Below the pieces are notes generated by a model that made no database searches, was not told the DNA's origin, and worked only from the letters and a program-made list of their open reading frames with translations. The position numbers and the translations under genes are program-made. A stretch of 64,000 bases of DNA from Bacteroidota bacterium (GTDB taxonomy: Bacteria > Bacteroidota > Bacteroidia > Flavobacteriales_E > Vicingaceae): assembly GCA_016183805.1 (NCBI GenBank), contig JACPDX010000027.1, positions 1 through 64,000 of the forward strand, read 5' to 3'. How positions within the stretch are numbered: the stretch's first letter is position 1; each line of letters opens with the position of its first letter. Positions 50,108 through 64,000 of the stretch are shown one piece after another.

Positions 50108-50881
50108 TTAACAATTTTCCCAAACAGGGGGTCTTTTTTCCAAAAATGAGTTGATGCCTTCGTTGGCATCTTTGGTTTCCATCAGTTGTTTAACGTACAT
50201 GTATTCCAATTGTGGTAAAAAGTTTCCTAAAATGTGGTTAAACTTAATTCTGGCAGCTTTTACTCCGTAACGTAACGAAGAGGCACTTTTTGGCACTATA
50301 TTTTTTGCTATCCAGGCTTCTACTTCGGTGTTTAAATCATCTTTGTTTTCAAACACATGGTTTAATAAACCTATTTTTAGGGCTTCATCGGCATCAATGG
50401 TTTTACCGGTTAGCAATAATTCTTCCGCTCTGGCTAAGCCTATTTTTTCGGGCAAAATAACCGATGCAGGTGGTGGAAAAACACCTAGAATAATTTCGGG
50501 CTGACCTAATTTTGCGGTTTTGTCGGCAAACAAAAAATTGCACATGATGGCTAATTCCATTCCGCCACCTAAACATTGCCCGGAAATTTTTGCCATGGTA
50601 GGAATTCCCAAATCCATGATACCAAAAAAGAGTTGATGAAACGTTTTTATCATCATTTCAGCCAGTTCTTTGGTGTGTTCCGGAACACTTGCCCCAAACG
50701 AAAAGTGTTTGCCTTCGCCCTGAAAAGTAATCAGTTTCAAATTCGGGTTGGTTTTAAAAGTTTTAAAACAATCCAGAATTTCTAGCATCATTATATTGTC
50801 TAACACATTGCCTTTGCCATCGTCTAAAAGTAGGTTGGCAACGGTGTTGTTGTGCGTGTAGGTTAATTTTATTTTTTCCAT
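50108..50881 (-). CDS. dch: Cyclohexa-1,5-diene-1-carbonyl-CoA hydratase
   Basis: A 257-residue crotonase-fold protein of the length of Thauera Dch (BamR type). FSFGASVPEHTKEL (oxyanion hole), GQCLGGGMELAIMC and GQPEIILGVFPPPASVILPE are conserved, and the end REKRPPVWENC-like (LEKRPPVWENC) matches the family. It hydrates dienoyl-CoA to 6-hydroxycyclohex-1-ene-1-carbonyl-CoA, the step after benzoyl-CoA reduction. It closes the cluster with oah and had immediately upstream. General enoyl-CoA hydratase is the alternative, but the order dch-oah-had makes this unlikely. Confidence 0.88.
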   Translation of the reverse strand: MEKIKLTYTHNNTVANLLLDDGKGNVLDNIMMLEILDCFKTFKTNPNLKLITFQGEGKHFSFGASVPEHTKELAEMMIKTFHQLFFGIMDLGIPTMAKISGQCLGGGMELAIMCNFLFADKTAKLGQPEIILGVFPPPASVILPEKIGLARAEELLLTGKTIDADEALKIGLLNHVFENKDDLNTEVEAWIAKNIVPKSASSLRYGVKAARIKFNHILGNFLPQLEYMYVKQLMETKDANEGINSFLEKRPPVWENC

Positions 50882-50885
50882 ATCG

Positions 50886-50912
50886 CCTCTTTTATCTCCC
50901 CAAAGGGGAGAA
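50886..50912. repeat. CTCCCC/GGGGAG palindrome
   Basis: TCTCCCCAAAGGGGAGA, a short member of the palindrome family, in the gap between oah and dch. Confidence 0.55.
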
Positions 50913-50950
50913 AGTTAAAATTTAATTTATATTGTAATTGTACTTCTTTA

Positions 50951-51031
50951 CCGTCATTGCGAGGCACGAAGCAATCTGTCTATGATTTAGGCAGATTGCT
51001 TCGTTCCGTTGCACTCCACTCGCAATGACGG
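50951..51031. repeat. Long hairpin repeat CCGTCATTGCGAG...CTCGCAATGACGG
   Basis: An 81-base imperfect inverted repeat. Outer arms CCGTCATTGCGAG / CTCGCAATGACGG pair over 13 bases, inner arms GAAGCAATCTG / CAGATTGCTTC over 11. A second copy is at 53341-53420. This repeat type is known from many unrelated bacteria. It lies in the oah-dch gap. Confidence 0.9.
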
Positions 51032-51051
51032 TGGAAACGCAATGACGATTA

Positions 51052-52155
51052 TTATACATTTGCACTTTTATACTGTGGAGAAATTGCTCTGTGCATTTCG
51101 TCATTCCACTCTTTGCCCTCAGCCAAAAGTTGACGAAGTTTAACAAAATCAACTTCTCTATCGTTTTTAGGTCCATCGTTAAATGCTTTAAATCCGGCTT
51201 TAGCTTCGGTCATCATGTTTAATGCTAACCATTCACGGCTACCTTCTTTGTTCATGTCCCAATGTTCTAATTTTTTCTTACGCACTTCGGTTAATGTTTT
51301 GTGTAAACAATTCGGGAAGGTGTGTAATAATTTAGCAATCAATTTATTCACCGTTTCATCTAATTTTGATAAATCAACAACACCTTTTGCCATCAGTTCT
51401 TTTCCTTTGGCTAATTCTTCTCCTGTTTTCATGGCTCCGAAAATTATCCGGCCGTATTCGTCAGCATATTTTTCAATATTCACCAATGGGTTGGCGATGA
51501 ACTTTCCGTCCACTTTAAGTGCCGGGGCAACGTCGGTAATCATGCCTAAATTTAAGGCTTGGTGAGCAGTAAATGGTTCGCAAAGTGTTAATGAAGCCAT
51601 GGCTCTTTCCACTCCAATGTATAAATGCAAAAAGTCGGTTGCACCACCAATGGCTGCACTTCCGTGTTTTGGTCCGGCTTGTCCGAAACGAGCTAAATCA
51701 GAAGCCACAGTAAAATCGGCTGCCATTCCAATTTCTTGTCCGCCACCAATTCGCATTCCGTTTACACGACAAACAACAGGTTTTTCGCATTTTAAAATGG
51801 CTGAAACCATGTCGTTAAACAAACGCATGTATTGTGAATATTCTTGAGGATTTCCTGAATAATATTCTGCATATTCTTTCGTATTTCCACCGGTACAAAA
51901 TGCTTTATCTTCAACTCCGGTAAATACCACTGCAACAACACTTCTGTCGTTTGATGCTTCGCCAAAAGCCAAAATAATTTCTTTAACAGCTTTGGTGGTA
52001 TAAGAGTTGTATTGTTTTGGATTGTTTAATATAATCCAAGCGTTAAAAAGTCCTTTAACAGGAGTGCCGTCAAAGTTTAAGCAAGGTCTTTTTTCGAAAA
52101 GGATGTCTGTGTAAGTATATCCTTCTACAATGTTGTGATTTTTTAGATTTTCCAT
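51052..52155 (-). CDS. oah: 6-oxocyclohex-1-ene-1-carbonyl-CoA hydrolase (BamA type)
   Basis: A 367-residue ring-opening hydrolase, very like Thauera Oah from end to end. Diagnostic stretches are NFDGTPVKGLFNAWIILNNP, SVVAVVFTGVEDKAFCTGGN, GNPQEYSQYMRLFNDMVSAI, RVNGMRIGGGQEIGMAADF and FGQAGPKHGSAAIGGATDFL. It hydrates and opens the ring of 6-oxocyclohexenoyl-CoA to 3-hydroxypimeloyl-CoA. This protein is the standard marker of anaerobic aromatic degradation, and finding it in a Bacteroidota context is notable. The gene lies between had and dch, the pathway order. Confidence 0.95.
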   Translation of the reverse strand: MENLKNHNIVEGYTYTDILFEKRPCLNFDGTPVKGLFNAWIILNNPKQYNSYTTKAVKEIILAFGEASNDRSVVAVVFTGVEDKAFCTGGNTKEYAEYYSGNPQEYSQYMRLFNDMVSAILKCEKPVVCRVNGMRIGGGQEIGMAADFTVASDLARFGQAGPKHGSAAIGGATDFLHLYIGVERAMASLTLCEPFTAHQALNLGMITDVAPALKVDGKFIANPLVNIEKYADEYGRIIFGAMKTGEELAKGKELMAKGVVDLSKLDETVNKLIAKLLHTFPNCLHKTLTEVRKKKLEHWDMNKEGSREWLALNMMTEAKAGFKAFNDGPKNDREVDFVKLRQLLAEGKEWNDEMHRAISPQYKSANV

Positions 52156-52177
52156 AGTATTTATTTTAAATTTAAAG

Positions 52178-52266
52178 TTTTACACACCCCTACCCCTACA
52201 TTCGACTTCGCTCAGCACAGAGTCTCAAGAGGGGAAATAGCCACGCCTTTTGCGTGGTTGGGGGAG
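52178..52266. repeat. Composite palindromic repeat in the had-oah gap
   Basis: CACCCCTACCCCTAC, CTTCGCTCAGCACAGAGTC and ...TAGCCACGCCTTTTGCGTGG followed by GGGGGAGG. It combines a CCCCT-type element with a second widespread type (GACTTCGCTCAG) and a small hairpin (CCACGC / GCGTGG). It fills the gap between the two genes. Confidence 0.65.
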
Positions 52267-52270
52267 GCTT

Positions 52271-53326
52271 TTAACAAGCCGGCACCAACACCGAGCGTTT
52301 ATCGTATTTATGTGCTAATGTATTTTTAAAAACTTCGTTGATTTGTGACAAGGGAAAAGTTTGGACAAAATCTTTGATTTCCAATTTTCCGGTAGCGATT
52401 AAATCCACCACTTCAGGGTATAATTCCGGTTTACAACCCCATGTTCCGATTAGTTTGGCATCAAATGCCATCAAATTACTCAAACGAACTTCTAATTTGT
52501 TCATGGTAAACCCAACAATACTTAATGTTGAGGTAAAAGTGATGAGGTTAAAAGCCAATTCCTGACCAGCTGTTGATCCGGAAAATTCAAAAATTTTCCA
52601 ACCGTATTTTGGAGCTCCAATTTCTTTGGCCAACTCTTTTACTTTGGCTTTTATTTCTTTAATGTCCAACCCTTTTGAGTTTATTGTAGCATCCACACCA
52701 TTCTTTTTAGCTTGTGCCAATTTTTCATCATTAATATCAATTGCCAAAACTTTAGCACCAAATATTTTTGCAATTAATGCTCCATAAACACCAACTCCAC
52801 CAACTCCAATTACAATAGCCAAATCGCCTTTTTCCAATTCCGATTTTTTCATCACCTGATATGGAGTAGAAATCGCATCGGCAATGACCGAAAGCTCTTC
52901 TAATTTGTATTTGGTAAGCATTGAATCAGGAACCACACACAAATATTGGTGAGGCACTACAATATGCGTTGCAAAACCTCCGTGAAAATCGTTTCCCGGC
53001 ATCAGTTGGTTCTGACACATGTTGCTTCGTCCTTTGTTGCACAACTCACAATTGCCACAAGGCAAAACCGCAGGAATAATTACATTTTTGCCTTTTAAAT
53101 GAGCAGGGCCTTCCAAAACAGTTCCGCTAATTTCGTGTCCAAGTGTTAATGGCATTTCTTTTTTGGTACGAACACCATCGTGCCAAAAGCTAAGGTCGGT
53201 ATGGCAAACGCCACAACCGGCGACTTTTACCAAAGCTTCATTTTCTTTTATTGTTGGCACTTCAACTTCAACCAATTTAAAATCGGCTTTCAGTTCAGTC
53301 ATTTGCCATTGTTTCATTTTTCCCAT
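52271..53326 (-). CDS. had: 6-hydroxycyclohex-1-ene-1-carbonyl-CoA dehydrogenase
   Basis: A 351-residue zinc alcohol dehydrogenase. Catalytic zinc ligands are in GCGVCHTDLSFWHDG and GHEISGTV, structural zinc Cys in CGNCELCNKGRSNMCQN, and the NAD-binding motif is VIGVGGVGVYGALIAKIFG. ADLSFWHDGVRTK-type residues (TDLSFWHDGVRT) resemble Had rather than general ADHs. It oxidises the 6-hydroxy compound made by Dch to the substrate of Oah. Its position next to oah supports the name. Confidence 0.87.
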   Translation of the reverse strand: MGKMKQWQMTELKADFKLVEVEVPTIKENEALVKVAGCGVCHTDLSFWHDGVRTKKEMPLTLGHEISGTVLEGPAHLKGKNVIIPAVLPCGNCELCNKGRSNMCQNQLMPGNDFHGGFATHIVVPHQYLCVVPDSMLTKYKLEELSVIADAISTPYQVMKKSELEKGDLAIVIGVGGVGVYGALIAKIFGAKVLAIDINDEKLAQAKKNGVDATINSKGLDIKEIKAKVKELAKEIGAPKYGWKIFEFSGSTAGQELAFNLITFTSTLSIVGFTMNKLEVRLSNLMAFDAKLIGTWGCKPELYPEVVDLIATGKLEIKDFVQTFPLSQINEVFKNTLAHKYDKRSVLVPAC

Positions 53327-53340
53327 GTTATTTTTATTTA

Positions 53341-53420
53341 CGTCATTGCGAGGTACGAAGCAATCTGTCCTTCGATGAGGCAGATTGCTTCACTCCATTG
53401 CATTTCGTTCGCAATGACGG
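53341..53420. repeat. Long hairpin repeat CGTCATTGCGAG...CGCAATGACG
   Basis: Second copy of the element at 50951. CGTCATTGCGAGGTACGAAG with CAATCTG pairs with CAGATTGCTTC and TCGCAATGACG. It lies in the thiolase-had gap. Confidence 0.9.
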
Positions 53421-53426
53421 TTAATT

Positions 53427-54686
53427 TTAAATATTTGTATTCTCAAATAAAATAGCTGTTCCTTGTCCCCCACCGATACACGCCGAAGCGATACCATATT
53501 TAACACCTCTTGCTTGCATTTCTCTAGAGATAGTGAGCGACAAACGTGTTCCAGTTGCAGCCAATGGATGCCCTAAAGCAATAGCTCCACCATTTACATT
53601 ACAGATGTCTCTGTTTAAGCCTAATTCTTTTTCGCAACCAATAAATTGAGCAGCAAAGGCTTCATTAATTTCTATTAAACCGATATCGGCTATTGTTAAA
53701 CCAGCCAATTCTAAAACCAAACGAATTGCAGGAACAGGTCCTAATCCCATTACTCTAGGATCTAAAGCACTGGTAGCAGAAGCAACAATTCTTGAAAGTG
53801 GTTTTAAGCCTTTAGCTTTAATAAAATCGCCATTCGCAACAACAACTGAAGCAGCACCATCAACAATTCCACTGGAGTTTGCAGCAGTTTGAACACCATC
53901 ACGAGCAAAAACAGAAGGTAATTTTGCCATATCCTCCAGATTGGATGGACGAACGTTTTCGTCTGTACAAAAATCTACTGCATGTTTAGGTAGCCTTACT
54001 TTTCTTGAGATTAAGCCTTCTATTGCAAATTCTGCCGAATTCATTTTAACCACTTCGCCATCAAAAAACCCTCTTTTATGGGCAGCAATGTACCTATCCA
54101 CAGAAAGTTTGGCAAAAATGTTGGCGTCTTCTTTGGTAATTCCGTGTTTTGCTGCAACATTTTCAGCTGTACATCCCATTGGTACAGCAGCGGTATCGTT
54201 TAATGCTTCCCAAAGCATGTCTTTAAAATCAATTTTTCCTAAGGCATAACCCATTCTGTTTCCAAAACTTACTGTAGGTGAAAGGCTCATATTTTCTGCA
54301 CCTCCACACAAAGCTGTATTTGCTTTTCCTAACGAAATTTGTTCTGCACCTGCAATAATAGTTTCAAAACCACTGCCACAAATACGTTGTAACATTACTG
54401 CCGGAACACCTTCAGGGATACCTGAAAATAGACCAACGTGCCGGGGAAAGAAATAAGAATCGGCCGAACTTTGACCAATATTTGCATACATTACTTGGTC
54501 GATGTCTTCGCCTTTAATTCCTGATTTTTCTATGGCAGCTTTTGTTGCATAAATAGCTAAATCTGTAGGAGAAACCTGCCCAAGTGTACCACATAATTTT
54601 CCGAACGGAGTTCTTGCTCCGTTAACTAAATAAATGTTGTCGTAGGTTATACCAAATCCTTTTTTCTTGTCGTGAAATCCTTTCAT
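53427..54686 (-). CDS. Acetyl-CoA acyltransferase (thiolase)
   Basis: A 419-residue thiolase of full length. Nucleophile Cys is in LQRICGSGFETI (family block), the His in NGGAIALGHPLAATGTRL and the second Cys in SACIGGGQGTAILFE. It cleaves 3-oxoacyl-CoA to acetyl-CoA and a shortened acyl-CoA. In this cluster it most likely serves the beta-oxidation that turns 3-hydroxypimeloyl-CoA into glutaryl-CoA plus acetyl-CoA. The matching 3-hydroxyacyl-CoA dehydrogenase is not in the window. Confidence 0.88.
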   Translation of the reverse strand: MKGFHDKKKGFGITYDNIYLVNGARTPFGKLCGTLGQVSPTDLAIYATKAAIEKSGIKGEDIDQVMYANIGQSSADSYFFPRHVGLFSGIPEGVPAVMLQRICGSGFETIIAGAEQISLGKANTALCGGAENMSLSPTVSFGNRMGYALGKIDFKDMLWEALNDTAAVPMGCTAENVAAKHGITKEDANIFAKLSVDRYIAAHKRGFFDGEVVKMNSAEFAIEGLISRKVRLPKHAVDFCTDENVRPSNLEDMAKLPSVFARDGVQTAANSSGIVDGAASVVVANGDFIKAKGLKPLSRIVASATSALDPRVMGLGPVPAIRLVLELAGLTIADIGLIEINEAFAAQFIGCEKELGLNRDICNVNGGAIALGHPLAATGTRLSLTISREMQARGVKYGIASACIGGGQGTAILFENTNI

Positions 54687-54778: not shown

Positions 54779-55813
54779 CTAATGGCTTAAACAAGCGATG
54801 ATTTTTAGGTTAGCATTCTCATCCCCTATACTAATTCGAAGTGCTTTTTCATCACCAAAAGGTTCCATTTTTCTGGTTTGTAGCCCGGCATCAATGAGCT
54901 GATCATAAATTACATCTCTTTCGAGCTTTGTATAAAAATAGAGATAAAGAAAATTGGCTTGAGATGGAAGTACATTAAATCCTAAGTTTTTTAAATTTGA
55001 ATAAAGGTAGTTACGTTGTTTCTCATTATTTTCAATGCTATATGTTATAAAATCAATATCATTTAAAGAAGCCATAGCAGCAACTGTTGCCAAAATGTTA
55101 ATGGTAAATGGTGTGCGTTGGTTTTCAATTTTATTGACAATGTTTTGATGTGCAATTCCATAGCCAATTCTAAGTCCGGCTAAGCCATAAATTTTAGAAA
55201 ATGAGCGAAGAATAATTACATTAGGGTACTTATTTAATAAACTCAAAGAATCAGGAAAACTGGGGTCGTTTACGTATTCAAAATAAGCTTCATCAATTAC
55301 AGCTAAAGTAGTTGGATTTAGTTGGTCTAAAAAGTGTTTTAATTCATTGTGAGTAAAAGTGGTTCCGGTTGGATTGTTAGGGTTTGCCAAAAAAACTAAT
55401 TTGGTTTTTTCATCACACAATTTTCCAATTATAGACAAATCTGTTCTATAGTTGTTCATTTCTGCAATTCGAAAATCAACTCCATATATTTCTGCCAGTA
55501 CTTTATAGGCAGTAAATGATATTTTTGGAATAACAATATGCTCGTCTTTGCTAACAAAGGTTTTAATCATGGTTTCGATAATTGAAACAGAGCCTGCACC
55601 AACCACAATATTGGAAACATCAACGTTTGATTTATCGGCTAACAATTGACGAAGTTCATGTTGCTTAACATCAGGATAAATAGACACTAAATTCAAGTTT
55701 TCCTGAATAGCGGAAATGGCTTTTGGAGAAGTTCCGTAAGGATTTTCGTTTTGAGCTAATCGAATAAATTTTTCTGTGTAGTTCACGGTATCATATTTAG
55801 TATTAATACTCAT
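54779..55813 (-). CDS. HisC-like PLP aminotransferase, probably for aromatic amino acids
   Basis: A 344-residue class I/II aminotransferase of the histidinol-phosphate family. RLAQNENPYGTSPKA, ANPNNPTGTTFT, IDEAYFEYV and the PLP-lysine motif SFSKIYGLAGLRIGYG are visible. Its start overlaps the stop of the FAD-subunit gene by four bases, so it is translationally coupled to catabolic, not histidine, genes. Transamination of phenylalanine, tyrosine or tryptophan to the 2-oxoacid used by the IorAB-type enzyme is the best fit. This is inferred from context. Confidence 0.8.
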   Translation of the reverse strand: MSINTKYDTVNYTEKFIRLAQNENPYGTSPKAISAIQENLNLVSIYPDVKQHELRQLLADKSNVDVSNIVVGAGSVSIIETMIKTFVSKDEHIVIPKISFTAYKVLAEIYGVDFRIAEMNNYRTDLSIIGKLCDEKTKLVFLANPNNPTGTTFTHNELKHFLDQLNPTTLAVIDEAYFEYVNDPSFPDSLSLLNKYPNVIILRSFSKIYGLAGLRIGYGIAHQNIVNKIENQRTPFTINILATVAAMASLNDIDFITYSIENNEKQRNYLYSNLKNLGFNVLPSQANFLYLYFYTKLERDVIYDQLIDAGLQTRKMEPFGDEKALRISIGDENANLKIIACLSH

Positions 55814-56676
55814 TTTCCAAAAATGGTTTTACTGACATTAAAGAGCACTTCTTTTCTATACCAATCAGAGGCTCTTATGTCTGAAATAGGGTTAGCATAC
55901 TCTAACACTTTTATTGCAAATTCTTCCTTATCGTTTTCTGAAATGGTATTTATATTTTTCTCAATTAAAAATTCACAAGCCGAAGTTGTAAAAGGAATGG
56001 TAGGAGCTACAGCTCCACAAGCCACTCCTGCGTGAGTTATTATTCCATCGTTAGTTAGTTGCAAATGATAAGCTAAAGAAACAATAGATATTTCCATAGA
56101 TTTTCTTGAGCCTACTTTCTCAAATCCGGATTTTAGGTTTTGGCCTGCATTTTTTGGAATGGTAATGTTTTTTATAATCTCTTTTTTTGTGAGAGAAGTC
56201 TTTTTCAACCCTCTAATAAAAGAGCTCAATAACTCTTTTCGTTCATTACCATCACAATCAATAATATGGCAGGTGGCTTTTAGGGCAATTAATGCGGCGG
56301 TCATATCACCGGAAGGAGAAACATTACAAATATTTCCACCAACAGTTGCTACATTTCTAATTTGTGTGGAAGCCAATTTACTAGCAGCTTGATATAAAAC
56401 AGGAAAATTTTCTTTTATGGATTTGTTGTCAATGATTTCGGAAGCTGTGGTTAATGCTCCTATTTGAAAATTAGTTTTATTTTCTATGATTAGTTTAAAA
56501 TTATCATCCTTTAATTGAGTTAAATTGATTAAAATCAACCCTTCGGTTTCTTGAGTTTTAAACTGGTTGATTAAATCGGTAAACCCGGCACCAATTCTAA
56601 AGTTTTCAGTTTGGTTGTCATAAATTGCATTCAGCAATTCAGGGGTTGTTTTGGGACTTATTACTTCAAAGTTCAT
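55810..56676 (-). CDS. Molybdenum hydroxylase FAD subunit (CoxM/XdhB/HcrB family)
   Basis: A 288-residue FAD-binding subunit. FRIGAGFTDLINQ and ATVGGNICNVSPSGDMTAAL are the FAD motifs, and FEKVGSRKSMEISIVSLAY the C-terminal domain start. It lacks the ~40-residue, four-Cys insertion that binds a [4Fe-4S] cluster in Thauera 4-hydroxybenzoyl-CoA reductase HcrB, so it is not a standard HcrB. It overlaps both neighbours by four bases. It passes electrons between the 2Fe-2S subunit and an unknown acceptor. Confidence 0.85.
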   Translation of the reverse strand: MNFEVISPKTTPELLNAIYDNQTENFRIGAGFTDLINQFKTQETEGLILINLTQLKDDNFKLIIENKTNFQIGALTTASEIIDNKSIKENFPVLYQAASKLASTQIRNVATVGGNICNVSPSGDMTAALIALKATCHIIDCDGNERKELLSSFIRGLKKTSLTKKEIIKNITIPKNAGQNLKSGFEKVGSRKSMEISIVSLAYHLQLTNDGIITHAGVACGAVAPTIPFTTSACEFLIEKNINTISENDKEEFAIKVLEYANPISDIRASDWYRKEVLFNVSKTIFGK

Positions 56677-56725
56677 ATCTTATTAGTTTCTTGTTTAGAG
56701 TTTCGTGTTTCAAGTTTCTTTTCAC
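56673..56725 (-). repeat. Low-complexity repeat (GAAACTTGAAACACG / AAGAAAC type) at the gene end
   Basis: AAACTTGAAACACGAAACTC and CAAGAAACTAATA units encode the last 15 residues of the large subunit and its stop, and reach the start of the FAD subunit gene. Confidence 0.7.
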
Positions 56726-59000
56726 TCAACGCTCTTAATACTTTTTCGGCAGTTATAGGTAATGAATAAAACCGAACTCCCAAAGCATTTGAAACTGCAT
56801 TGGCAATTGCTGCTGCTGTTGGAATTAATGGTGCTTCTCCAGCTCCTTTTGAGCCATAAGGCCCAGCTTCATCGTACGTTTCTATTGGATAAAAATGTAC
56901 ATCAGGCATATCTGTTGAAGTTAGCATTTTGTAGCCATGAAAACTTGGGTTTTTAAGAATTCCTTTTTCATAAATCATTTCTTCGGTTAACGCATAACCA
57001 ATTCCTGTTGCTAATCCACCTTCCATTTGTCCTTGTAATCCTATTGGATTTAGGACCCGTCCAACATCCTGAGAAACGTGAACATTAAGCACCTGAACAT
57101 TTCCGGTAACGGTATCCACCTCAACTTCTATGGCTTGAGAAGCAAAAGCATAATTCCCGGAAACATCGCCTTTAAAATCTTTATCTTGAAAACGACTTGG
57201 TGGTTCGTAGAAATAGTTCACCGTACACAATTCGTGTGGTGAAGCAAAGTGCATTTCACGAGCTACTTTGTCAAGTTTAATTTCTTGGCCATTGAATAGC
57301 ATAGAACCATCTTTGTATTCCCATTCATTGGTTTTAACATTTAACAATTGAGATGCTTTATTATTTAATTTTTCTTTGATGAGTTTGATTGCCCCCAATA
57401 AGGAATTACCGGCAACAAAACTTGTTCTGGAAGCATGAACTCCAACGTCCCAAGGTTTTACATCGGTATCGGTATTAATCACTTTTATCTTTTCCTTTGG
57501 AATTCCTAATTCTTCCATCGCAATCATCGCCAAAACGGTTTCAGAACCTTGTCCGATTTCGTTGGAGCCTGTAACAATGGTTAAATAGCCGTAATCGTCT
57601 AACTTTAAAGTTGTTCCACAGCCATCGGAACGGTAAATTTTTGCTCCTCCACCCACATGCAACATAGAACCTAAGCCAACTCCCCTTTTATACCTGCCAG
57701 TATTTGGTGCTGCCATTATTTTGTCGTAATTACTTTTCTCGATTACCGTTTTTAATGCCGGAATTGCTCCACAAGTTTTAAAATGCAATCCTTGACCCGT
57801 AATTTCCCCTTTGTAATTGGCATTAATTAATCGTATTTCCCTTTTGTCCATTCCCAATTCTTCAGCCATTAAATCAATATTTGATTCAATTGAAAAAGTT
57901 GCCTGAGGATTTCCATATCCTCTAAAAGAACCTGCAAAAGGGTTGTTGGTATAAACTGCGTGAGAATCGAATTTACAGGCTGGAACCTGATACAAAGATG
58001 AATAAGATTGCATCATCACAAAAGGTGTTGTTGCTCCCCAAGAAGTATATGCTCCGTTGTCTTTTATGATTTCAACTTCTCTAAAGGTAAATTTTCCGTT
58101 TTCATCACAACCAGTTGTTAAATCAATAACCATTGGTTGGCGGGTTGGAGAAGCTAAAAATTCTTCTTCTCTGGAATATAAAATTTGAACAGGTTTTCCA
58201 CTTTTTTTAGCCAACAGCACGCAAATGGGTTCAAAAGGATGCATGTCTAATTTACTACCAAAACCACCTCCAATAATTGGTTGTATCACTCTGATTTTTG
58301 ATGGCTCCATTTTTAAAGCGTGAGCAATATCCCGTTGATACAAAAATGGAACTTGTGTTGATGACCAAAGTGTTAATCGTCCGTCAAAATTATTGAACTC
58401 GGCAGTGATGTTGCTTGTTGCCATACAAGCATGAGTAACACGAGGTAACTCATACCTTTTTTTAACAATCACTTTACTTTTGGCTTTCTGCTCTGCTAAA
58501 TTTCCATGTTCGTAATGAAAATATTCAGCTACGTTTTTATTTCCAAATTGTTCAGCACCTTTTCCAAATTCATTAATTCGGGGAGCAGTTTCTTTAAGAG
58601 CTTCAAATGGGTCGTAAACCCCTTCTTTTATCTTGTATTTAACTTCAATTAGTTGGATGGCTTTGTCTGCAATTTCTTTTGTTTGGGCTGCAACAGCTGC
58701 AATTTCATCACGATTACAATTTACAGTTCCTTTTTTGAGGATAGGATGGTCTCTTTTGTAGCCAATGTTGTTCACATCTACATCGTTGGCAGTAATTATA
58801 CATTCTACACCTTCTAGTGTCAGAGCTTTAGAGGTATCAATTGAAATAATTTCTGCACAAGGGTATTTGGCTCGTAAAATTGAACCGTGTAGCATGTTTG
58901 GTAATTCAATATCGTGACCATAAACGGCTTTTCCAGAAACACGTTCTTTGCCATCTAATTTTTGGTGCGATTTACCGATTATGTTTAGTTCTTTTTTCAT
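56673..59000 (-). CDS. Molybdenum hydroxylase large subunit (HcrA/XdhA family)
   Basis: 775 residues from MKKELNIIGKSH (59000), close to HcrA length (~770). Upstream in-frame codons are repeat-derived (NPPLTPPKEGKLPPFGRVG) and not native. Mo-pterin motifs are GGGFGSKLDMHPFEPI, AGSFRGYGNPQATFSIE, GSNEIGQGSETVLAMIA, DVGVHASRTSFVAGN and GSKGAGEAPLIPTAA with the catalytic Glu. The PWDVGVHASRT block resembles what I recall of hydroxybenzoyl-CoA reductases. The C-terminal tail KKLETRNSKQETNKI is encoded by a repeat. It probably reduces a 4-hydroxyaryl-CoA or hydroxylates a heteroaromatic ring. Confidence 0.85.
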   Translation of the reverse strand: MKKELNIIGKSHQKLDGKERVSGKAVYGHDIELPNMLHGSILRAKYPCAEIISIDTSKALTLEGVECIITANDVDVNNIGYKRDHPILKKGTVNCNRDEIAAVAAQTKEIADKAIQLIEVKYKIKEGVYDPFEALKETAPRINEFGKGAEQFGNKNVAEYFHYEHGNLAEQKAKSKVIVKKRYELPRVTHACMATSNITAEFNNFDGRLTLWSSTQVPFLYQRDIAHALKMEPSKIRVIQPIIGGGFGSKLDMHPFEPICVLLAKKSGKPVQILYSREEEFLASPTRQPMVIDLTTGCDENGKFTFREVEIIKDNGAYTSWGATTPFVMMQSYSSLYQVPACKFDSHAVYTNNPFAGSFRGYGNPQATFSIESNIDLMAEELGMDKREIRLINANYKGEITGQGLHFKTCGAIPALKTVIEKSNYDKIMAAPNTGRYKRGVGLGSMLHVGGGAKIYRSDGCGTTLKLDDYGYLTIVTGSNEIGQGSETVLAMIAMEELGIPKEKIKVINTDTDVKPWDVGVHASRTSFVAGNSLLGAIKLIKEKLNNKASQLLNVKTNEWEYKDGSMLFNGQEIKLDKVAREMHFASPHELCTVNYFYEPPSRFQDKDFKGDVSGNYAFASQAIEVEVDTVTGNVQVLNVHVSQDVGRVLNPIGLQGQMEGGLATGIGYALTEEMIYEKGILKNPSFHGYKMLTSTDMPDVHFYPIETYDEAGPYGSKGAGEAPLIPTAAAIANAVSNALGVRFYSLPITAEKVLRALSEKKLETRNSKQETNKI

Positions 59001-59021
59001 TGTTTTGAAGTTTGAGGTTTG

Positions 59022-59085
59022 TCCCACCCCGACCCTCCCAAAGGGAGGGAGCTTCCCCTCCTTCGGAGGGGTTAGGGGAGGATTT
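59022..59085. repeat. Double CCCTCC/GGAGGG palindrome
   Basis: CCCTCCCAAAGGGAGGG and CCCCTCCTTCGGAGGGG in tandem, between the 2Fe-2S and molybdenum subunit genes. Confidence 0.75.
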
Positions 59086-59088
59086 GAA

Positions 59089-59559
59089 CTATTTTTTATA
59101 AACTGCCTCAGCAGCATCAATTATTTTAGCATAACCTGTACATCTGCATAAATTACCTTCTAAGCTTTTTTTAACCTCCTCTCGTGTTGGAGTTATTCCT
59201 TCGGCAATACATTTGTCGCTGTATGCTTTGGTAGTCATTACCATTCCAGAGGTACAAAATCCACATTGAACAGCCCCGTTTTCGAGCATTTTTTCTTGTA
59301 CTTGATGTAATGGATTTTCATTATTTCCTAAGCCCTCGATAGTTGTTACTTCTTTTCCATCTACATTTATCGCCAAATACATACAAGAATTAATGGCAGC
59401 ACCATTAACAATTACCGAACAAGCACCACATTCACCTTCTAAACAACCGGGTTTTGTTCCCTTTAATCGGAGTACATCCCTGATTAAATCGATTAACAAC
59501 AAGGAGGATTTTATTTCTTGTGTTTTTATTTCTCCGTTAATTTTAAATGTTATTATCAT
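59089..59559 (-). CDS. Molybdenum hydroxylase 2Fe-2S subunit
   Basis: A 156-residue subunit with two [2Fe-2S] clusters. The plant-type ligands are in GCLEGECGACSVIVNG and NSC; the helical-domain ligands are in VQCGFCTSGM and GNLCRCTGY. Size and layout match HcrC, CoxS and XdhC-type subunits. It precedes the large subunit gene and follows iorB with a repeat between. Confidence 0.93.
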   Translation of the reverse strand: MIITFKINGEIKTQEIKSSLLLIDLIRDVLRLKGTKPGCLEGECGACSVIVNGAAINSCMYLAINVDGKEVTTIEGLGNNENPLHQVQEKMLENGAVQCGFCTSGMVMTTKAYSDKCIAEGITPTREEVKKSLEGNLCRCTGYAKIIDAAEAVYKK

Positions 59560-59565: not shown

Positions 59566-59612
59566 GAGATTTACGATTTTGGATTTATGATTTACGATTT
59601 GTTATTTGAGTA
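59566..59612 (-). repeat. Low-complexity repeat (AAATCGTAAATC type)
   Basis: Supplies the last codons of iorB (AATCGTAAATCATAA) and fills the gap to the 2Fe-2S subunit gene. Confidence 0.7.
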
Positions 59613-60184
59613 CAATAATTTCTTCCCAATTCAAATGCTTCCAAAGTAGCTTCTAAATTATAATCGGCTACATGGTTTGTTATTGCTTTACATATCACTG
59701 CTGCTGAAAGCGGAAATGAGTTTACTTGAGAGGCAACGCCCAACACAAACATGTTTCTTAAAATATTTTTTATGCCGGTAATTTTTTCAATAACGATAAC
59801 TTGTTTTATTTGTGGTTGAAGCAGTTCCACAAACGCTGCTGTATCAGGATATTGAGCAGTTCCGGCATTTACGAGGAAAGGTGTGATTTTAAAATTATCA
59901 GCCACAACAACAGAATTTTTATGAAGATAATTTAAGCATCGTTGTGTTTCCAACAGTTCTAGACCTAACAAAAAATCTGCTCCTGCATTTTCTATAAAAC
60001 CATAAGTATTTTCTCCCAAGGTAATACTGGCCGTAACTGAACCACCTCGTTGCGATAAGCCATGAATCTCACTTGTTGCCACCGGAATGTCGGCTATTAG
60101 GGCTGCCTCAACAATTAAGTTGGTAAGAAACACTACTCCTTGTCCGCCAACCCCAGCAACTTGTATTTTGGTTTTATTATTCAT
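59585..60184 (-). CDS. iorB: Indolepyruvate:acceptor oxidoreductase beta subunit
   Basis: A 199-residue protein with VAGVGGQGVVFLTNLIVEAAL and ATSEIHGLSQRGGSVTASI, the standard IorB/POR-gamma motifs, and a full-length fold. It pairs with the IorA part of the neighbouring fusion to oxidise arylpyruvates to arylacetyl-CoA. Its start overlaps the stop of the preceding gene. The last residues TNRKS come from a repeat. Confidence 0.92.
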   Translation of the reverse strand: MNNKTKIQVAGVGGQGVVFLTNLIVEAALIADIPVATSEIHGLSQRGGSVTASITLGENTYGFIENAGADFLLGLELLETQRCLNYLHKNSVVVADNFKITPFLVNAGTAQYPDTAAFVELLQPQIKQVIVIEKITGIKNILRNMFVLGVASQVNSFPLSAAVICKAITNHVADYNLEATLEAFELGRNYCTQITNRKS

Positions 60185-61560
60185 TAAACAGGTATTACTT
60201 CTTCTATAAATGTTATTGCATTATTTGGGCAGACATCAATACACAAACCGCAATTGGTGCATTTTTGATAATCAATTTCTATTTTTCCATCTACTTTTAT
60301 CATGGCAGGACAACCGAAATTATCGATGCAATGATTGCATTTTGCACAAGCTTGATACAAATCCATTCCCTTTATTCCTTCTAACAAATCTTCTTCGGTT
60401 GAAAAAATATAGTTAGGAATAGTGTATTTGTTGCTTGATTGATTTAACTTTTTAAGTGCTTTAATTCCTTCATAACCGTATTTGTAATTTTCCAACAGCT
60501 GTCTTATTCCTGTAGCTGCTCTTCTTCCACTGGCAATTGCACCAATTACACTTTGGTGGTTGCCATTACAAACATCTCCGGCTGCAAAAACATTTTTAAA
60601 ATTGGTAAATCCATTTTCGTTGTTGATGTTAATGAGCGAAGAATTTTTGTCTGTTTGTTCGGTTAGTTCTGAAAATAGTTCTGTATTCGGACTTTGCCCG
60701 ATAGCTGTAATAACAACATCACAAGTTAATGTTTTTGTGTGTTTTGAATGAAGCGAATTTATCGTACATTGTATCATATCGTTTGAATCCACTACTTTTT
60801 CAATGGCATATTCATTAACAATTTCAATACCTTCTTCTATAGCATGGATAATTTCTTCTTCAAAGGCAGGCATGTTTTCTCGACTTTCTATACAAACTAA
60901 GGTTACTGTATTGTTTGGATTTATTTTTTTTGACGAACGTGCTGAATCAATTGCACTGTTTCCTCCGCCAATAATTAAGTAGTTTAAAGGATGGTTTGCT
61001 TGTATCGTATCAGTATTTATAGCTTTTAAAAAGGAAAGAGCAGTATATTTTTTTGTGTCGGGAATATTGTTTTCTACTACTTCCAGTTTTTTTGATTTCC
61101 ATAAACCAATTGCTAAAACAACTGCATCGTATTTTTGGCTGAGGTCATTTATCGTAAAATCTTTTCCTAGTAGTTTGTTGCCTAAAAATTTCACTCCTAA
61201 TTCTTCTAAAATGGTTGTTTCATAGTCCAAACCTGTTTTGTCCATTCTAAAAAAAGGAATAATGTATTTTAACATTCCTCCGGGTTTTTCTTCTTTGTCG
61301 TAAATAGCTACCTCATAACCCTCACGAATTAAATCGTAAGCAGCACTTAACCCGGCGGGACCGGCACCTATAATGGCTATTTTTTTATTTTTCTTTTCAG
61401 CATTTTTTGATTGTTGAATTGCATTAGAAAAATCGAAAAAACTCTCATCGAAAGAAGAAACAAATCGTTTTAGTTTTTTAATAGGAACAATCGTTTTGTT
61501 GTTCGATAACAATTCACATGGTCGGTGGCAAATATCTCCGCAGGTGCGAGAAAACAACAT
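60184..61560 (-). CDS. IorA-GltD fusion, C-terminal part (FAD oxidoreductase plus ferredoxin domain)
   Basis: 458 residues from the ATG at 61560, inside the second copy of the 35-base duplication. The order is Cys-rich TCGDICHRPCELL (the CGRxCPxxCE motif of GltD-type Fer4_20 domains), then IKKLKRFVSSF. FAD motif is IAIIGAGPAGLSAAYDLIREG, NADP-type motif LIIGGGNSAIDSARSSKKI, and AAGDVCNGNHQSVIGAIASGRRAATGI closes the oxidoreductase. A C-terminal 2[4Fe-4S] domain (CAKCNHCIDNFGCP, CTNCGLCIDVCP) is of the type that ends IorA. It is therefore the detached second half of the gene at 61470-63602. Confidence 0.85.
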   Translation of the reverse strand: MLFSRTCGDICHRPCELLSNNKTIVPIKKLKRFVSSFDESFFDFSNAIQQSKNAEKKNKKIAIIGAGPAGLSAAYDLIREGYEVAIYDKEEKPGGMLKYIIPFFRMDKTGLDYETTILEELGVKFLGNKLLGKDFTINDLSQKYDAVVLAIGLWKSKKLEVVENNIPDTKKYTALSFLKAINTDTIQANHPLNYLIIGGGNSAIDSARSSKKINPNNTVTLVCIESRENMPAFEEEIIHAIEEGIEIVNEYAIEKVVDSNDMIQCTINSLHSKHTKTLTCDVVITAIGQSPNTELFSELTEQTDKNSSLININNENGFTNFKNVFAAGDVCNGNHQSVIGAIASGRRAATGIRQLLENYKYGYEGIKALKKLNQSSNKYTIPNYIFSTEEDLLEGIKGMDLYQACAKCNHCIDNFGCPAMIKVDGKIEIDYQKCTNCGLCIDVCPNNAITFIEEVIPV

Positions 61561-63602
61561 TGGCAAATATCTCCGCAGGTGCGAGAAAACAACATCTTAT
61601 CTCGAACCATTTTTACGGCTTCCGGATAATTTTCTTCAATAATTGAATTAAAAAATCCGTGATTACAAATGTTAGCAGGGCACAATTGTTCTTTTGCAGG
61701 AATGTGATTGGTTGCTGTTATTTTTAGCTTGGCTCTTGATAAATTATTTAAAGGAGAATAACACCTTGCACAAGCAATTTGTTTATCCTCGTGATTGTCG
61801 CAGGTGTTGCAACGGGAATGGTCAACAACAATTTTTTTTCTATAAATGTTTCCGTCTTTAAATTCGGGTAAAAATATACATGGCGATTTTGCTACAATTA
61901 CGGAAACCCCTTTTGTTGCTAAAGCATCGTTTATTTTTCTAAAACTATCTTTTAAATTAAACGGGAAAATAGATTCTACATATTGAGCTCCCATACCTCG
62001 AATAAAAGGCAATAAATCTATTTGATGATATTTATTTAGATGCGTTGCCCCGGGGTGGTCTTGATGTCCGGTCATGCCAATAGTTCTGTTATCGAAAATT
62101 ATAACCAGAATATTAGCTTTGGTATAAATGGCATTTAATAAAGAAGTGACTCCCGAATGAAAAAATGTTCCATCGCCCAACATAGCAACCGTTTTATTGC
62201 TTTGGTTGGAAGTGCTAAATGCCTTAGAAAGTCCTTGTGCCATAGAAACACTCATGCCCATGTGGTTGATGGTATCAATCATTTTAAGCGGTGGCAAAGC
62301 TCCTAAACCGTTACATCCAATATCACCACAAAGTATTACATCGGGAATATTTCTGGGAACAGCTAATTTCAATGCATAAAATGTTGCACGGTGGGGGCAT
62401 CCTGCACACAAAGTTGGTGGACGTTGTGGTAAGTCTTTTAGAATATTTTCTGCATTTTTTATTGATACATTTTTATTTTTTAAGGTTTTGTCTTTTGTGA
62501 AATCGAGTAATGTTTTTTCAATGCTATCTAATGAAAATTCTCCTGTTGGAATCAAGGTGGAGAAACCTTTCCCGAAAATAGCAGTTTTAATTTTATTTTC
62601 TTGAGCAACAATCCTCACATCATTTTCGATGATAGGATCTAACTCTTCAATTACTATTATTTTCTTTAAAGGAAGGTTTAAAAATTCTAAAACAATATTA
62701 GTTGGAAATGGACAAATTAAACCAAGGTTAAGTATAGAATAATTGTTTTTTGAAGCAGAACGCTCCAGTATTTCTTTTACATAAACTGTTGTAACTCCAC
62801 TGGTAATAATTCCGATTTTAGCATTTTGATGATGTATAATTTGGTTGTATTTCACCCCATGTTCGTTAATAAAATCGGAACGAAGTTTATTTAAAAGTTT
62901 AGCATGTGCTGCGGATGTTTTTGCAGGAATGTTGATGTGTTCCGGGATTCTTTCGAATGAAGCTTCATTATTTTTTTTCGATAATTTTCCGTAGTTGATA
63001 ACACCTCGTGTATGCGAAACCCGAGTGGTAAGACGAACAATAACCGGAAGTTTTAATTGTGCTGAAAGTAAAAAAGCCGATTTGGTTTGTTCCAAACTTT
63101 CCTCTGGAGTAGCAGGATTAAAAATTGGAACCGAAGCCATTTTTCCCCAATAACGAGAATCCTGTTCGTTGGAACTGGAATGACAGCCAGGGTCATCACA
63201 AACAACAATTACTAAAGGAGCAACAATGGTTTGATAAGTAATGCTCATGAGTGCATCGCAGGCTACATTCATGCCTACGTTTTTCATTACACACAGTGCA
63301 CTTTTATTGCCTATGGAATAAGCAATGGCTTTTTCTAATGCAATTTTTTCGTTGATGCTGTATTCAAAATATATTTTAATGGCGGTTTGTTGAGGATATT
63401 TTTCCTCGTTTTCTTTTCTGTTTTGAAAAGAATTAACATGAGAAAAAACTTCTGAAATTTCGGTAGAGGGTGTGCCGGGATAAGAAAAAACGCCATCAAC
63501 ATTTGCTTCAATGGCACCTCTAGCAACAGCCACATTGCCCATTTCACAAACCTTAAGTGGTGCTGAATAAGAAGTTAATATGTCGATTGTTTTTCTTATC
63601 AT
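61470..63602 (-). CDS. iorA: IorA-GltD fusion, N-terminal part (indolepyruvate oxidoreductase alpha-like; frameshifted)
   Basis: 710 residues, of which about 680 are native. The IorA core is complete. Pyrimidine domain: GVFSYPGTPSTEISEVF. Cys block: PPTLCAGCPHRATFYAL. TPP motif: AMLGDGTFFHSGVTSLLNAI, followed by IFDNRTIGMTGHQDHPG. A Cys-rich linker (CNTCDNHEDKQIACARC, LCPANICNHGFF) begins a GltD-like Fer4_20 domain. The frame is lost at the duplication, adding about 29 foreign residues. With one copy removed the frame joins the next gene into one 1127-residue protein. It overlaps the CoA-transferase stop by one base. The likely substrates are arylpyruvates. Confidence 0.88.
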   Translation of the reverse strand: MIRKTIDILTSYSAPLKVCEMGNVAVARGAIEANVDGVFSYPGTPSTEISEVFSHVNSFQNRKENEEKYPQQTAIKIYFEYSINEKIALEKAIAYSIGNKSALCVMKNVGMNVACDALMSITYQTIVAPLVIVVCDDPGCHSSSNEQDSRYWGKMASVPIFNPATPEESLEQTKSAFLLSAQLKLPVIVRLTTRVSHTRGVINYGKLSKKNNEASFERIPEHINIPAKTSAAHAKLLNKLRSDFINEHGVKYNQIIHHQNAKIGIITSGVTTVYVKEILERSASKNNYSILNLGLICPFPTNIVLEFLNLPLKKIIVIEELDPIIENDVRIVAQENKIKTAIFGKGFSTLIPTGEFSLDSIEKTLLDFTKDKTLKNKNVSIKNAENILKDLPQRPPTLCAGCPHRATFYALKLAVPRNIPDVILCGDIGCNGLGALPPLKMIDTINHMGMSVSMAQGLSKAFSTSNQSNKTVAMLGDGTFFHSGVTSLLNAIYTKANILVIIFDNRTIGMTGHQDHPGATHLNKYHQIDLLPFIRGMGAQYVESIFPFNLKDSFRKINDALATKGVSVIVAKSPCIFLPEFKDGNIYRKKIVVDHSRCNTCDNHEDKQIACARCYSPLNNLSRAKLKITATNHIPAKEQLCPANICNHGFFNSIIEENYPEAVKMVRDKMLFSRTCGDICQCCFLAPAEIFATDHVNCYRTTKRLFLLKN
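61526..61595 (-). repeat. 35-base perfect tandem duplication that breaks the iorA-gltD fusion
   Basis: TGGCAAATATCTCCGCAGGT followed by GCGAGAAAACAACAT occurs at 61526-61560 and again at 61561-61595. Since 35 is not a multiple of three, the second copy shifts the frame. Removing one copy rejoins the two reading frames. Confidence 0.97.
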
Positions 63603-64000
63603 TAAATTATTTTTTCGGCTACCATTTTTTCTATTTCCTTTTCGGTAATTCCAATTTGTTGATATACTTTATTGTTTTGTTCTCCTAATCGTGGTGGACA
63701 ATTCAACGAAAAATTATTTTTTTCAAGAAATGCTGTATTGTATGATGGAGGAGAAAGTTTCACTTCTTTACCGTTCGGAATTGTTGTTCTCATCATACAA
63801 GCATCTATAAATGGTAATGCGGCAACTTCTTTAACTGTATTTACGGGAGCTGCTGATAGATTTAAGGAAATGCATAACTCGAAAAATTCTTTGGTGCTAT
63901 AGTTTTTACTTAATTCTCCTATTTCTTTATAAATGTTTTCTTTTTCCTTCATTCTTCCCTCGTTAGTTTTTCGATTTTCCGAAAAAAGTTTTTCAAACCC
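63602..64000 (-). CDS. CaiB/BaiF family CoA-transferase, C-terminal part (cut by window end)
   Basis: The frame is open to the window edge; only the last 132 residues are seen. GFEKLFSENRKTNEGR, then AAPVNTVKEVAALPF and PPRLGEQNNKVYQQIG match the C-terminal region of class III (formyl-CoA transferase type) enzymes. An ATG at 63952 inside the domain is not the start. In this cluster it could activate an aromatic acid by moving CoA from another thioester. It is coupled to iorA by a one-base stop/start overlap (TAATG type). Confidence 0.85.
   Translation of the reverse strand, partial: GFEKLFSENRKTNEGRMKEKENIYKEIGELSKNYSTKEFFELCISLNLSAAPVNTVKEVAALPFIDACMMRTTIPNGKEVKLSPPSYNTAFLEKNNFSLNCPPRLGEQNNKVYQQIGITEKEIEKMVAEKII

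Follow-up and report, generated by a model that had tools for sequence, protein, structure and literature searches.

Among the closest described relatives of the locus reported here is the iaa operon of Aromatoleum, which serves indoleacetate degradation; a GGG rather than a YEG motif marks the IaaF subclass, and the electron acceptor of IaaF is stated as unknown (PMC8360864). In Aromatoleum evansii KB740 (L130), the hydantoinases, IaaF, the mutase pair, the molybdenum hydroxylase and the CaiB transferase lie in one run, adjoining an ORF that appears by eye to encode an AMP-type ligase. Another related system is the class I, bcr-type benzoyl-CoA pathway. Among Bacteroidota, one sentence in PMC8099898 reports that Flavobacteriales koll-22 MAG 18, from a nitrate-reducing benzene reactor, expresses enzymes of anaerobic benzoyl-CoA degradation. 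The original prediction had seen here the best candidate for an undescribed system in the window, a claim that is limited by that sentence; the relevant passages of PMC8099898 contain no gene cluster, and the word tryptophan is absent from its main text. No report of an iaa-bcr combination was found among open-licence papers, and neither PMC10803450 nor PMC3794298 has any word beginning with "Bacteroid" in its main text. Judged from its genes, the cluster looks like a junction of two known routes, bacterial auxin degradation and the benzoyl-CoA ring-breaking pathway. We consider it likely that it encodes anaerobic tryptophan degradation, running from indolepyruvate through indoleacetyl-CoA and 2-aminobenzoyl-CoA into the benzoyl-CoA pathway.

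Gene content of the 45-kb cluster

The window, that is, the whole stretch of 64,000 nucleotides analysed, corresponds to positions 1-64000 of contig JACPDX010000027.1, and the cluster occupies positions 50108-95003, about 45 kb in all and far more than its window part. The ORF calls placed the genes originally named on the minus strand at the positions first reported, and family models recovered the thiolase, the aminotransferase, the three-subunit molybdenum hydroxylase, IorB, IorA and the end of the CaiB gene (Table 1). The gene order, sought elsewhere in Bacteroidota, recurs in the operons of relatives, and the cluster is therefore not a product of chance.

Table 1. Features of the cluster lying in the window, with their family matches.
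Feature	Position	Strand	Family match or remark
dch, cyclohexa-1,5-diene-carbonyl-CoA hydratase-like crotonase	50108..50881	-	best NCBIfam TIGR03189
oah (BamA), 6-oxocyclohex-1-ene-carbonyl-CoA hydrolase	51052..52155	-	TIGR03200
had, 6-hydroxycyclohex-1-ene-carbonyl-CoA dehydrogenase	52271..53326	-	TIGR03201
core thiolase	53427..54686	-	TIGR01930, 373.4 bits, above cut-off 240.55
class I/II aminotransferase, proposed tryptophan/aromatic transaminase	54779..55813	-	hisC TIGR01141
FAD subunit, molybdenum hydroxylase (proposed indoleacetyl-CoA 2-hydroxylase)	55810..56676	-	PF00941, PF03450
Mo subunit (MoL)	56673..59120	-	PF02738, PF20256, PF01315
2Fe-2S subunit, molybdenum hydroxylase	59089..59559	-	family match
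iorB, indolepyruvate oxidoreductase beta-like	59585..60184	-	TIGR03334, 133.3 bits, below cut-off 205.8
iorA-like, fused to GltD/ferredoxin domains	60184..63602	-	TIGR03336
two exact 35-bp tandem copies	61526..61595		shift iorA frame
CaiB-type CoA-transferase, IaaL-like	63602..64000, on to contig 64795	-	PF02515

The grouping of dch, oah and had was confirmed, with Oah (594.8 bits, cut-off 464.45) and Had (454.6 bits, cut-off 338.65) above their equivalog cut-offs and Dch below its own (214.8 versus 292.5 bits). In the operons of relatives compared, dch adjoins oah except in genome G205, where Oah stands alone on an 18.6-kb contig. Whether Oah groups with general crotonases was examined within a narrow tree, in which 51 Oah sequences stood apart from 37 Dch sequences and one hydratase domain; the Dch sequences formed one group. 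The core thiolase, which belongs to the core operon whether the iaa cassette is there or not, probably acts in the lower benzoyl-CoA pathway. The aryl-CoA reductase sought beyond the window was also found, and the objection that the genome might hold none thus falls: BcrABCD, in the order CBAD, starts some 20 kb after the window ends, and the Bcr family is the best match for each of the four subunits. By these matches, an ATP-dependent benzoyl-CoA reductase is encoded in the genome.

The iaa cassette and its distribution

The steps from arylacetyl-CoA to aroyl-CoA, originally reported as not seen, turned out to be largely encoded, as an iaa pathway placed between the BCR genes and had-oah-dch, almost gene after gene, within a core operon conserved in relatives. 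The set comprises a hydantoinase pair, a B12 mutase pair, a CaiB transferase, a molybdenum hydroxylase and IaaF, with proteins 32-67% identical to those of A. evansii. The GGG motif of IaaF is present in this genome and four relatives and in all 67 sequences that reach the motif, six further ones being partial. The homology and clustering of this set, the identities of Oah, Had, BcrB and BcrC, and that of IaaF by its motif are established at the level of sequence.

The Mo subunit in the window shows 50% identity to that of the A. evansii iaa cluster, against 34% for a second molybdenum enzyme, which is encoded on the plus strand near the BCR genes and resembles 4-hydroxybenzoyl-CoA reductase; the 2Fe-2S subunit is 45% identical to A. 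evansii, compared with 47% for the domain of the plus-strand enzyme, and the FAD subunit 32% to the A. evansii cluster protein. If phenylalanine or tyrosine were instead degraded via arylpyruvate and arylacetyl-CoA to benzoyl-CoA, the window enzyme would act as 4-hydroxybenzoyl-CoA reductase, whose alpha subunit is both the best family and the best solved relative of MoL; the FAD subunit also has a weak TIGR03195 match (80.9 bits, cut-off 404.55), and the reductase-like pair lies nearby on the plus strand. However, MoL reaches 563.8 bits against a cut-off of 994.55, and the cysteine loop of 37 residues present in the plus-strand HcrB-like protein is absent from the window FAD subunit, which shows an alignment gap there and gave no match to 1rm6_B at 1e-10. 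The reductase assignment was rejected on these grounds, that role being better fitted, by sequence, by the plus-strand pair, and the window enzyme is by its homology a molybdenum hydroxylase of the iaa kind. The phenylalanine/tyrosine scheme also leaves no place for the hydantoinase, the mutase and the GGG-type IaaF, and appears highly improbable. Since these proteins fit a route through the indole N-ring, phenylacetate/Pad-type and plain phenylalanine/tyrosine routes were set aside for the window genes.

The cassette, with aminotransferase and IorAB, occurs in five other genomes of the family (G005, G006, G012, G017 and G025). It lies between core genes in this genome, G017 and G025, and also in G012, spread over three contigs, and on a contig other than the core in G005 and G006; in seven genomes the core genes adjoin directly. 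IaaF was detected in six of 46 family genomes, all six Oah-positive. Of 50 genomes chosen by iaa-type hydantoinase B, 49 contain Oah (1e-70), and IaaF accompanies 46 of the 50 hydantoinase loci, while Oah at 1e-80 was found in four of 395 genomes sampled across the phylum. Searches of plasmids gave no Oah match at 1e-60, one IaaF record (40%) and 154 hydantoinase B records, all below 60% identity, of which the one examined was not iaa. This distribution bears on the possibility that 2-aminobenzoyl-CoA is used by another enzyme, such as the HgdB/activase pair, and that the BCR acts separately on benzoate or 4-hydroxybenzoate. The core operon does exist without iaa genes, and HgdB/ApbA-activase could form a second ATP-dependent system; nevertheless, the joint occurrence of Oah and iaa-type hydantoinase and the position of the cassette inside the core operon in three genomes argue against such a division, which we regard as unlikely.

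Proposed tryptophan route and its entry

The best family of the aminotransferase is hisC (310.9 bits, cut-off 276.55), and its substrate is for this reason proposed from context; it is the last cassette gene in all five relatives that carry the cassette. IorA (551.2 bits, cut-off 650.9, scored on a broken ORF) and IorB both fall below their cut-offs and are therefore described as IorAB-like. The IorA-GltD fusion of the original prediction exists as a single ORF of 1123-1133 aa in G005, G006, G017 and G025, but in this assembly the 35-bp duplication splits it into two overlapping ORFs (61470-63602 and 60184-61566). The CaiB-type transferase is likewise present (48-49% identity to the A. evansii protein), its gene being cut by the window edge and ending at position 64795 of the contig. 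Among 21 loci that extend far enough to judge, 15 have an IorA of at least 50% identity directly after CaiB.

No CoA ligase (IaaB) was found among the cassette ORFs of this genome, and the core has only an ADP-forming-type ligase and a ligase part standing alone. Free indoleacetate (auxin) might be degraded as in Aromatoleum, activated by a core ADP-forming or AMP-type ligase, with the aminotransferase and IorAB serving other 2-oxoacids. The homology of the iaa set to the known indoleacetate pathway would agree with this, as would the core ligases; yet the core ligase also occurs in core operons without iaa genes and is thus not tied to indoleacetate, and aminotransferase and IorAB lie inside the cassette in six family genomes, this one included, even off the core contig. 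We consider auxin as the substrate quite unlikely.

The original view of a benzoyl-CoA-type ring-opening cluster stands, whereas its peripheral route from aryl-CoA to benzoyl-CoA was too vague; aromatic amino acids remain the likely source, now specified from the iaa gene set as most likely tryptophan, with 2-aminobenzoyl-CoA as product. In the tryptophan route, the aminotransferase would yield indolepyruvate, and IorAB would decarboxylate it oxidatively, directly to indoleacetyl-CoA, with no need of a ligase. The molybdenum hydroxylase would oxygenate the indole ring at C2, HyuA/HyuB would open the oxindole at the expense of ATP to (2-aminophenyl)succinyl-CoA, the CaiB transferase would shift CoA to the other carboxyl, and MutL/MutS would rearrange the product to (2-aminobenzyl)malonyl-CoA. 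IaaF could then oxidise and decarboxylate it to 2-aminocinnamoyl-CoA, and HadEch with the Thl2/HMGS-like pair could complete the steps to 2-aminobenzoyl-CoA. BcrABCD would reduce the ring, the amino group being lost at or near that stage, and Dch, Had and Oah would lead to 3-hydroxypimelyl-CoA. We infer the tryptophan entry, the passage of 2-aminobenzoyl-CoA into the reductase, the electron flow and every activity; the route would be anaerobic (facultative) and perhaps nitrate-linked.

Several observations count against this route. With a HisC call and sub-cut-off IorA and IorB, none of the entry proteins fixes the substrate, and the duplication in iorA is either an assembly error or a sign of a broken gene. 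A close IorA after CaiB is missing in six of the 21 loci, five of which show a 25-27% match. G205 has IaaF and Oah, and its Oah contig shows no core neighbour; the genome that carries the cluster reported here gave no narG over the cut-off and a sub-threshold NosZ match only. The route also does not account for RidA and HgdB/ApbA-activase. RidA, found at none of the 22 loci of a second locus group, reads CMS in 20 of 20 sequences at the position that we take to be that of the catalytic arginine, which weakens the case for a standard enamine deaminase acting once the ring has been reduced. Similarly weakened is the HMGS-like partner as an active synthase: at the column where we presume the active-site cysteine to lie, it is missing in all of the 15 sequences, out of 18, that cover that column. 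The sequence from L107 carries a cysteine two positions further on.

The HgdB-like core protein (219.8 bits, cut-off 750) keeps three cysteines aligning with those of HadB, and no second 2-hydroxyacyl-CoA dehydratase subunit was found beside it in the core operon; it is not counted here among the members of that enzyme family. It is conceivable, though doubtful, that it forms with the ApbA-activase a second, undescribed ATP-driven radical system degrading phenylpyruvate and 4-hydroxyphenylpyruvate. In such a system, a single-subunit HgdB-like iron-sulfur protein would work with a fusion protein that joins an activase to a 2-oxoacid reductase of the ketopantoate-reductase type, and the reductase would form (R)-aryllactates; after CoA addition by the neighbouring ligase, the aryllactyl esters would pass to cinnamoyl-CoA-type esters and, by beta-oxidation, to benzoyl-CoA and 4-hydroxybenzoyl-CoA. 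If this system is added to the iaa cassette and the 4-hydroxybenzoyl-CoA reductase, anaerobic breakdown of all three aromatic amino acids would be encoded in a single 45-kb cluster.

Comparison with described systems

The tryptophan route offers a gene-by-gene hypothesis of how Bacteroidota that scavenge protein could oxidise tryptophan anaerobically, predicts a ligase-bypassing entry into indoleacetyl-CoA, and brings many uncultured lineages within the range of the auxin-degradation gene set. The electron acceptor of IaaF, the nitrogen loss from 2-aminobenzoyl-CoA and the role of the conserved HgdB/ApbA-activase pair become testable. It may also give a reason for the expression reported for koll-22 MAG 18, likewise a Bacteroidota, in which the passages concerned of PMC8099898 place benzoyl-CoA degradation alongside peptidases and peptide uptake.

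All seven genes of the class I pathway (bcrABCD, dch, had and oah) are present, with BcrB, BcrC, Had and Oah over their cut-offs; here, however, Dch, BcrA (414.9 versus 578 bits) and BcrD (305.6 versus 312.85 bits) fall below, and the operon in this genome and its relatives adds the HgdB-like protein and the ketopantoate-reductase/activase (ApbA-activase) fusion. Compared with 4-hydroxybenzoyl-CoA reductase (1rm6/1sb3), the plus-strand HcrB-like protein aligns to 1rm6_B across the cysteine loop, but the enzyme has fused 2Fe-2S and Mo subunits, and both proteins score below cut-off. With the iaa operon of Aromatoleum (PMC8360864), the locus shares the hydantoinase pair, GGG-type IaaF, the B12 mutase pair, the three-subunit molybdenum hydroxylase and the CaiB transferase, all clustered in one direction. 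Because the ligase IaaB is absent from the cassette, it is treated as a variant of that operon rather than the same one: aminotransferase and IorAB-like proteins stand in place of IaaB, RidA, an HMGS-like/thiolase pair and a fused dehydrogenase/hydratase are added, and the genes lie inside a benzoyl-CoA operon, in another block order and in a Bacteroidota host.

Benzoyl-CoA reductase and the extent of the cluster

The cluster extends past the window edge, up to base 95003 of contig C36 (182,634 bases, read as far as base 120000), in a genome of 3.47 Mb, 109 contigs and 95.9% completeness; the cluster was counted as 34 ORFs, a figure that takes iorA twice and leaves out the 153-aa ligase part. 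It is a real, conserved gene system in which two known pathways are combined with a new entry; on homology and gene context, tryptophan would be converted through indolepyruvate and indoleacetyl-CoA to 2-aminobenzoyl-CoA, which would enter the benzoyl-CoA pathway. The gene list of the original prediction was borne out by the - strand ORFs of the window, with Oah and Had exceeding their NCBIfam equivalog cut-offs, while Dch has the correct best family at a score under its cut-off. When C36 was read beyond 64 kb for bcrABCD, absent from the window, all four genes were located (Table).

Table. Cluster genes at and beyond the window edge (C36 numbering, identical to window numbering)
Feature	Position	Strand	Family match or remark
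CaiB transferase	63602-64795	-	PF02515
Small 119-aa ORF	64865-65224	-	23S intervening-sequence protein family (by eye)
B12 mutase large	65254-66879	-	TIGR00641, above cut-off
B12 mutase small	66904-67323	-	TIGR00640, above cut-off
Cassette thiolase	67349-68536	-	
HMG-CoA-synthase-like/zinc-ribbon partner of thiolase	68533-69945	-	
IaaF	69972-71099	-	GGG motif
RidA	71193-71597	-	PF01042
Hydantoinase B	71668-73341	-	PF02538 and PF01968 for B/A pair
Hydantoinase A	73382-75586	-	PF02538 and PF01968 for B/A pair
3-Hydroxyacyl-CoA dehydrogenase/enoyl-CoA hydratase, fused	75599-77617	-	
Ketopantoate-reductase/activase fusion (ApbA-activase)	77804-79651	-	PF02558, PF08546, PF01869
Stand-alone C-terminal part of AMP-type ligase	79677-80138	-	153 aa
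HgdB-like protein	80143-81378	-	PF06050
ADP-forming-type acyl-CoA ligase	81445-83580	-	scores below cut-offs
bcrD	83655-84512	-	best family BcrD, 305.6, below cut-off 312.85
bcrA	84570-85985	-	best family BcrA, 414.9, below cut-off 578
bcrB	86086-87372	-	654.3, above cut-off 486.55
bcrC	87466-88686	-	433.0, above cut-off 421.15
MobA-like	88950-89546	+	by eye
XdhC-like	89533-90339	+	by eye
SDR	90401-91135	+	
2Fe-2S/Mo protein, fused	91172-93973	+	TIGR03194 831.4, below cut-off 994.55
FAD subunit with cysteine loop	94065-95003	+	TIGR03195 196.3, below cut-off 404.55

Residues C86, C125 and C353 of the HgdB-like protein are kept in 12/12 rows and align with HadB cysteines that we take to be cluster ligands; no second HgdB subunit was found beside its gene. 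Solved relatives of the ketopantoate-reductase-type domain of the fusion are annotated as 2-dehydropantoate 2-reductase. The ApbA-activase and a single HgdB-like gene also belong to the benzoyl-CoA core of relatives, whether or not these carry iaa genes. Relatives carry a whole AMP-type ligase in place of the ADP-forming-type ligase, and the family genome G018 has the same arrangement as the genome studied here (C-terminal AMP-type part plus ADP-forming-type ligase). The IorA-GltD fusion of the original prediction is one ORF of 1123-1133 aa in G005, G006, G017 and G025 and two overlapping ORFs here, owing to an exact 35-bp tandem duplication (61526-61595) that shifts the frame and may have arisen either in assembly or by recent mutation.

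By eye, the stretch 13513-20595 encodes a pyruvate:ferredoxin oxidoreductase-like protein and, in two genes, a 2-oxoacid:ferredoxin oxidoreductase; in G004, G017, G025 and G045 a similar two-gene pair, a possible electron source for benzoyl-CoA reductase, follows dch or a dehydrogenase behind dch. A complex I operon (20957-30995, names by eye) lies near ferredoxin-dependent enzymes; no NuoE/F/G-like ORF was found for it in the window ORF listing, and it may be of the ferredoxin type.

The indoleacetate cassette and the two molybdenum enzymes

The joint presence of a hydantoinase pair, a B12 mutase pair, a CaiB transferase and a Mo hydroxylase led to the indoleacetate (iaa) pathway being suspected. 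For the B12 mutase pair, D11, H13 and G16 of the cobalamin motif are kept in 33/33 rows, and the zinc-ribbon cysteines of the HMG-CoA-synthase-like partner in 18/18. The GGG motif, which marks the IaaF subclass (PMC8360864), was present in this genome and four relatives and, across the scanned loci, in 67/67 IaaF rows extending as far as the motif; 6 further rows are partial. Small ORFs similar to the 119-aa ORF occur at L109 and other iaa loci.

The window Mo enzyme has 4-hydroxybenzoyl-CoA reductase alpha as its top family, at a score far under the cut-off, and 1rm6_A as its closest solved relative. Its FAD subunit gave a weak match to the beta model (80.9 bits against a cut-off of 404.55), did not match 1rm6_B at 1e-10 and has a 37-residue gap opposite the cysteine-rich loop of the + strand FAD subunit, which aligns across that loop with 1rm6_B. 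On the loop gap, the missing 1rm6_B match and the weak scores, the window enzyme is assigned a putative role on the indole ring and the + strand enzyme one on 4-hydroxybenzoyl-CoA. The large Mo subunit (56673-59120) is listed with a TTG start and a PLTPPKEGK string N-terminal to the family-matching part; the true start probably lies further in.

Distribution in the family and across Bacteroidota

The same gene order was sought and found in the family, as BcrC-B-A-D, CoA ligase, HgdB-like, ApbA-activase, thiolase, Had, Oah and Dch, interrupted in some genomes by unrelated genes. Oah was detected in 13/46 family genomes and BcrB in 11, all within those 13; the two with Oah and no BcrB (G010, G019) are assemblies of 320 and 400 contigs. 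The fusion occurs in 13/46, 12 of them Oah-positive, the exception being G018, where a 6-kb contig carries it with HgdB and the ADP-type ligase. IaaF was found in six, every one Oah-positive. The ApbA-activase is next to the thiolase in G004, G005, G006, G013, G044, G045 and G104, whereas a 16-gene iaa cassette separates them in this genome, G017 and G025; G012, spread over three contigs, is consistent with the latter arrangement, and G005 and G006 carry the cassette on a separate contig. The HgdB-like/ApbA-activase pair follows the benzoyl-CoA core, not the iaa cassette. As for respiration, narG was above cut-off in 16/46 genomes, 11/13 with Oah and 5/33 without (Fisher 2e-5), and none was above cut-off in this genome, so the nitrate linkage is a family trend; this genome encodes four COX1-family proteins and a NosZ match below cut-off (371 bits, cut-off 625).

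Among 395 sampled Bacteroidota, Oah at 1e-80 was found in 4, including this genome, and IaaF in 2. The ApbA-activase was detected in 2, both Oah-positive. Neither G339, where ApbA and activase are two separate genes, nor G205 was matched; G205 has Oah alone on its contig, and its IaaF, mutase and hydantoinase B genes lie together on a second one. A hydantoinase B alignment was also scanned over genome contigs, and the best 80 of 441 relatives were used. Oah was tested in 50 of these 80 loci, the 30 left out including five family members and nearly all betaproteobacterial loci, and was present at <=1e-70 in 49/50 genomes (48/50 at 1e-80), the sole negative being a 2.3-Mb MAG. The G455 match spans 150 residues, and identity is just 50-53% in four genomes, including A. 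evansii. IaaF was found at 46 of the 50, the Oah-negative genome being among the other four. Fisher's exact test (49/50 vs 3/394) gave 2e-60, a descriptive value that ignores relatedness and differing thresholds.

Comparison with known systems

In a tree that bears narrowly on the distinctness of Oah from general crotonases, 51 Oah rows, without Thauera, Geobacter or Firmicutes Oah, stood apart from 37 Dch rows (own sequence present twice) and a single other crotonase domain on a very long branch. One starred branch comprised five betaproteobacterial Oah. Family f1 needs at least 4 changes on the Oah tree, the families of G4xx rows being unassigned, which may reflect transfer within Bacteroidota.

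As far as the relevant passages of PMC10936416 go, 37 representative FCB genomes held no bcr or bam genes, and bcr is present in Krumholzibacteriota MAGs, likewise FCB. Among the open-licence PMC papers listed, judged by title and opening of the abstract, none dealt with tryptophan entry in Bacteroidota or with iaa and bcr genes in combination; further taxa may be given in the 2012 and 2016 iaa papers to which PMC8360864 refers.

The 80 scanned loci formed a first group of 58 (L066-L121, L127, L142), titled mostly Bacteroidota, with Marinimicrobia, Ignavibacteria, Calditrichaeota, unplaced bacteria and one Competibacteraceae record, and a second of 22, mostly betaproteobacterial. RidA (>=60%) was found in 38/58 first-group loci and IorA (>=50%) in 15/58, flanks of 10 kb at most making some of these absences not real, and neither in any of the 22, where L135 and L139 have weaker Ior matches. 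IorA directly follows CaiB in 15/21 loci with at least 900 bp beyond CaiB; five of the other six show a 25-27% match. In betaproteobacterial L129, L131, L132, L134 and L136, had and oah lie a short way ahead of the iaa genes in the same orientation, so this linkage is not exclusive to Bacteroidota.

Aromatoleum evansii KB740 (L130) was among the best 80 of the 441 relatives. Its cluster contains hydantoinase A (49% identity), hydantoinase B (67%), IaaF (56%), the small (44%) and large (65%) mutase subunits, the FAD subunit (32%) and CaiB (48%), together with 2Fe-2S and Mo subunits and an ORF that is an AMP-type ligase by eye. The 2Fe-2S subunit does not discriminate between the two molybdenum enzymes (45% to the window's, 47% to that of the + strand), whereas for the Mo subunit identity is 50% with the window enzyme and 34% with the one on the + strand.
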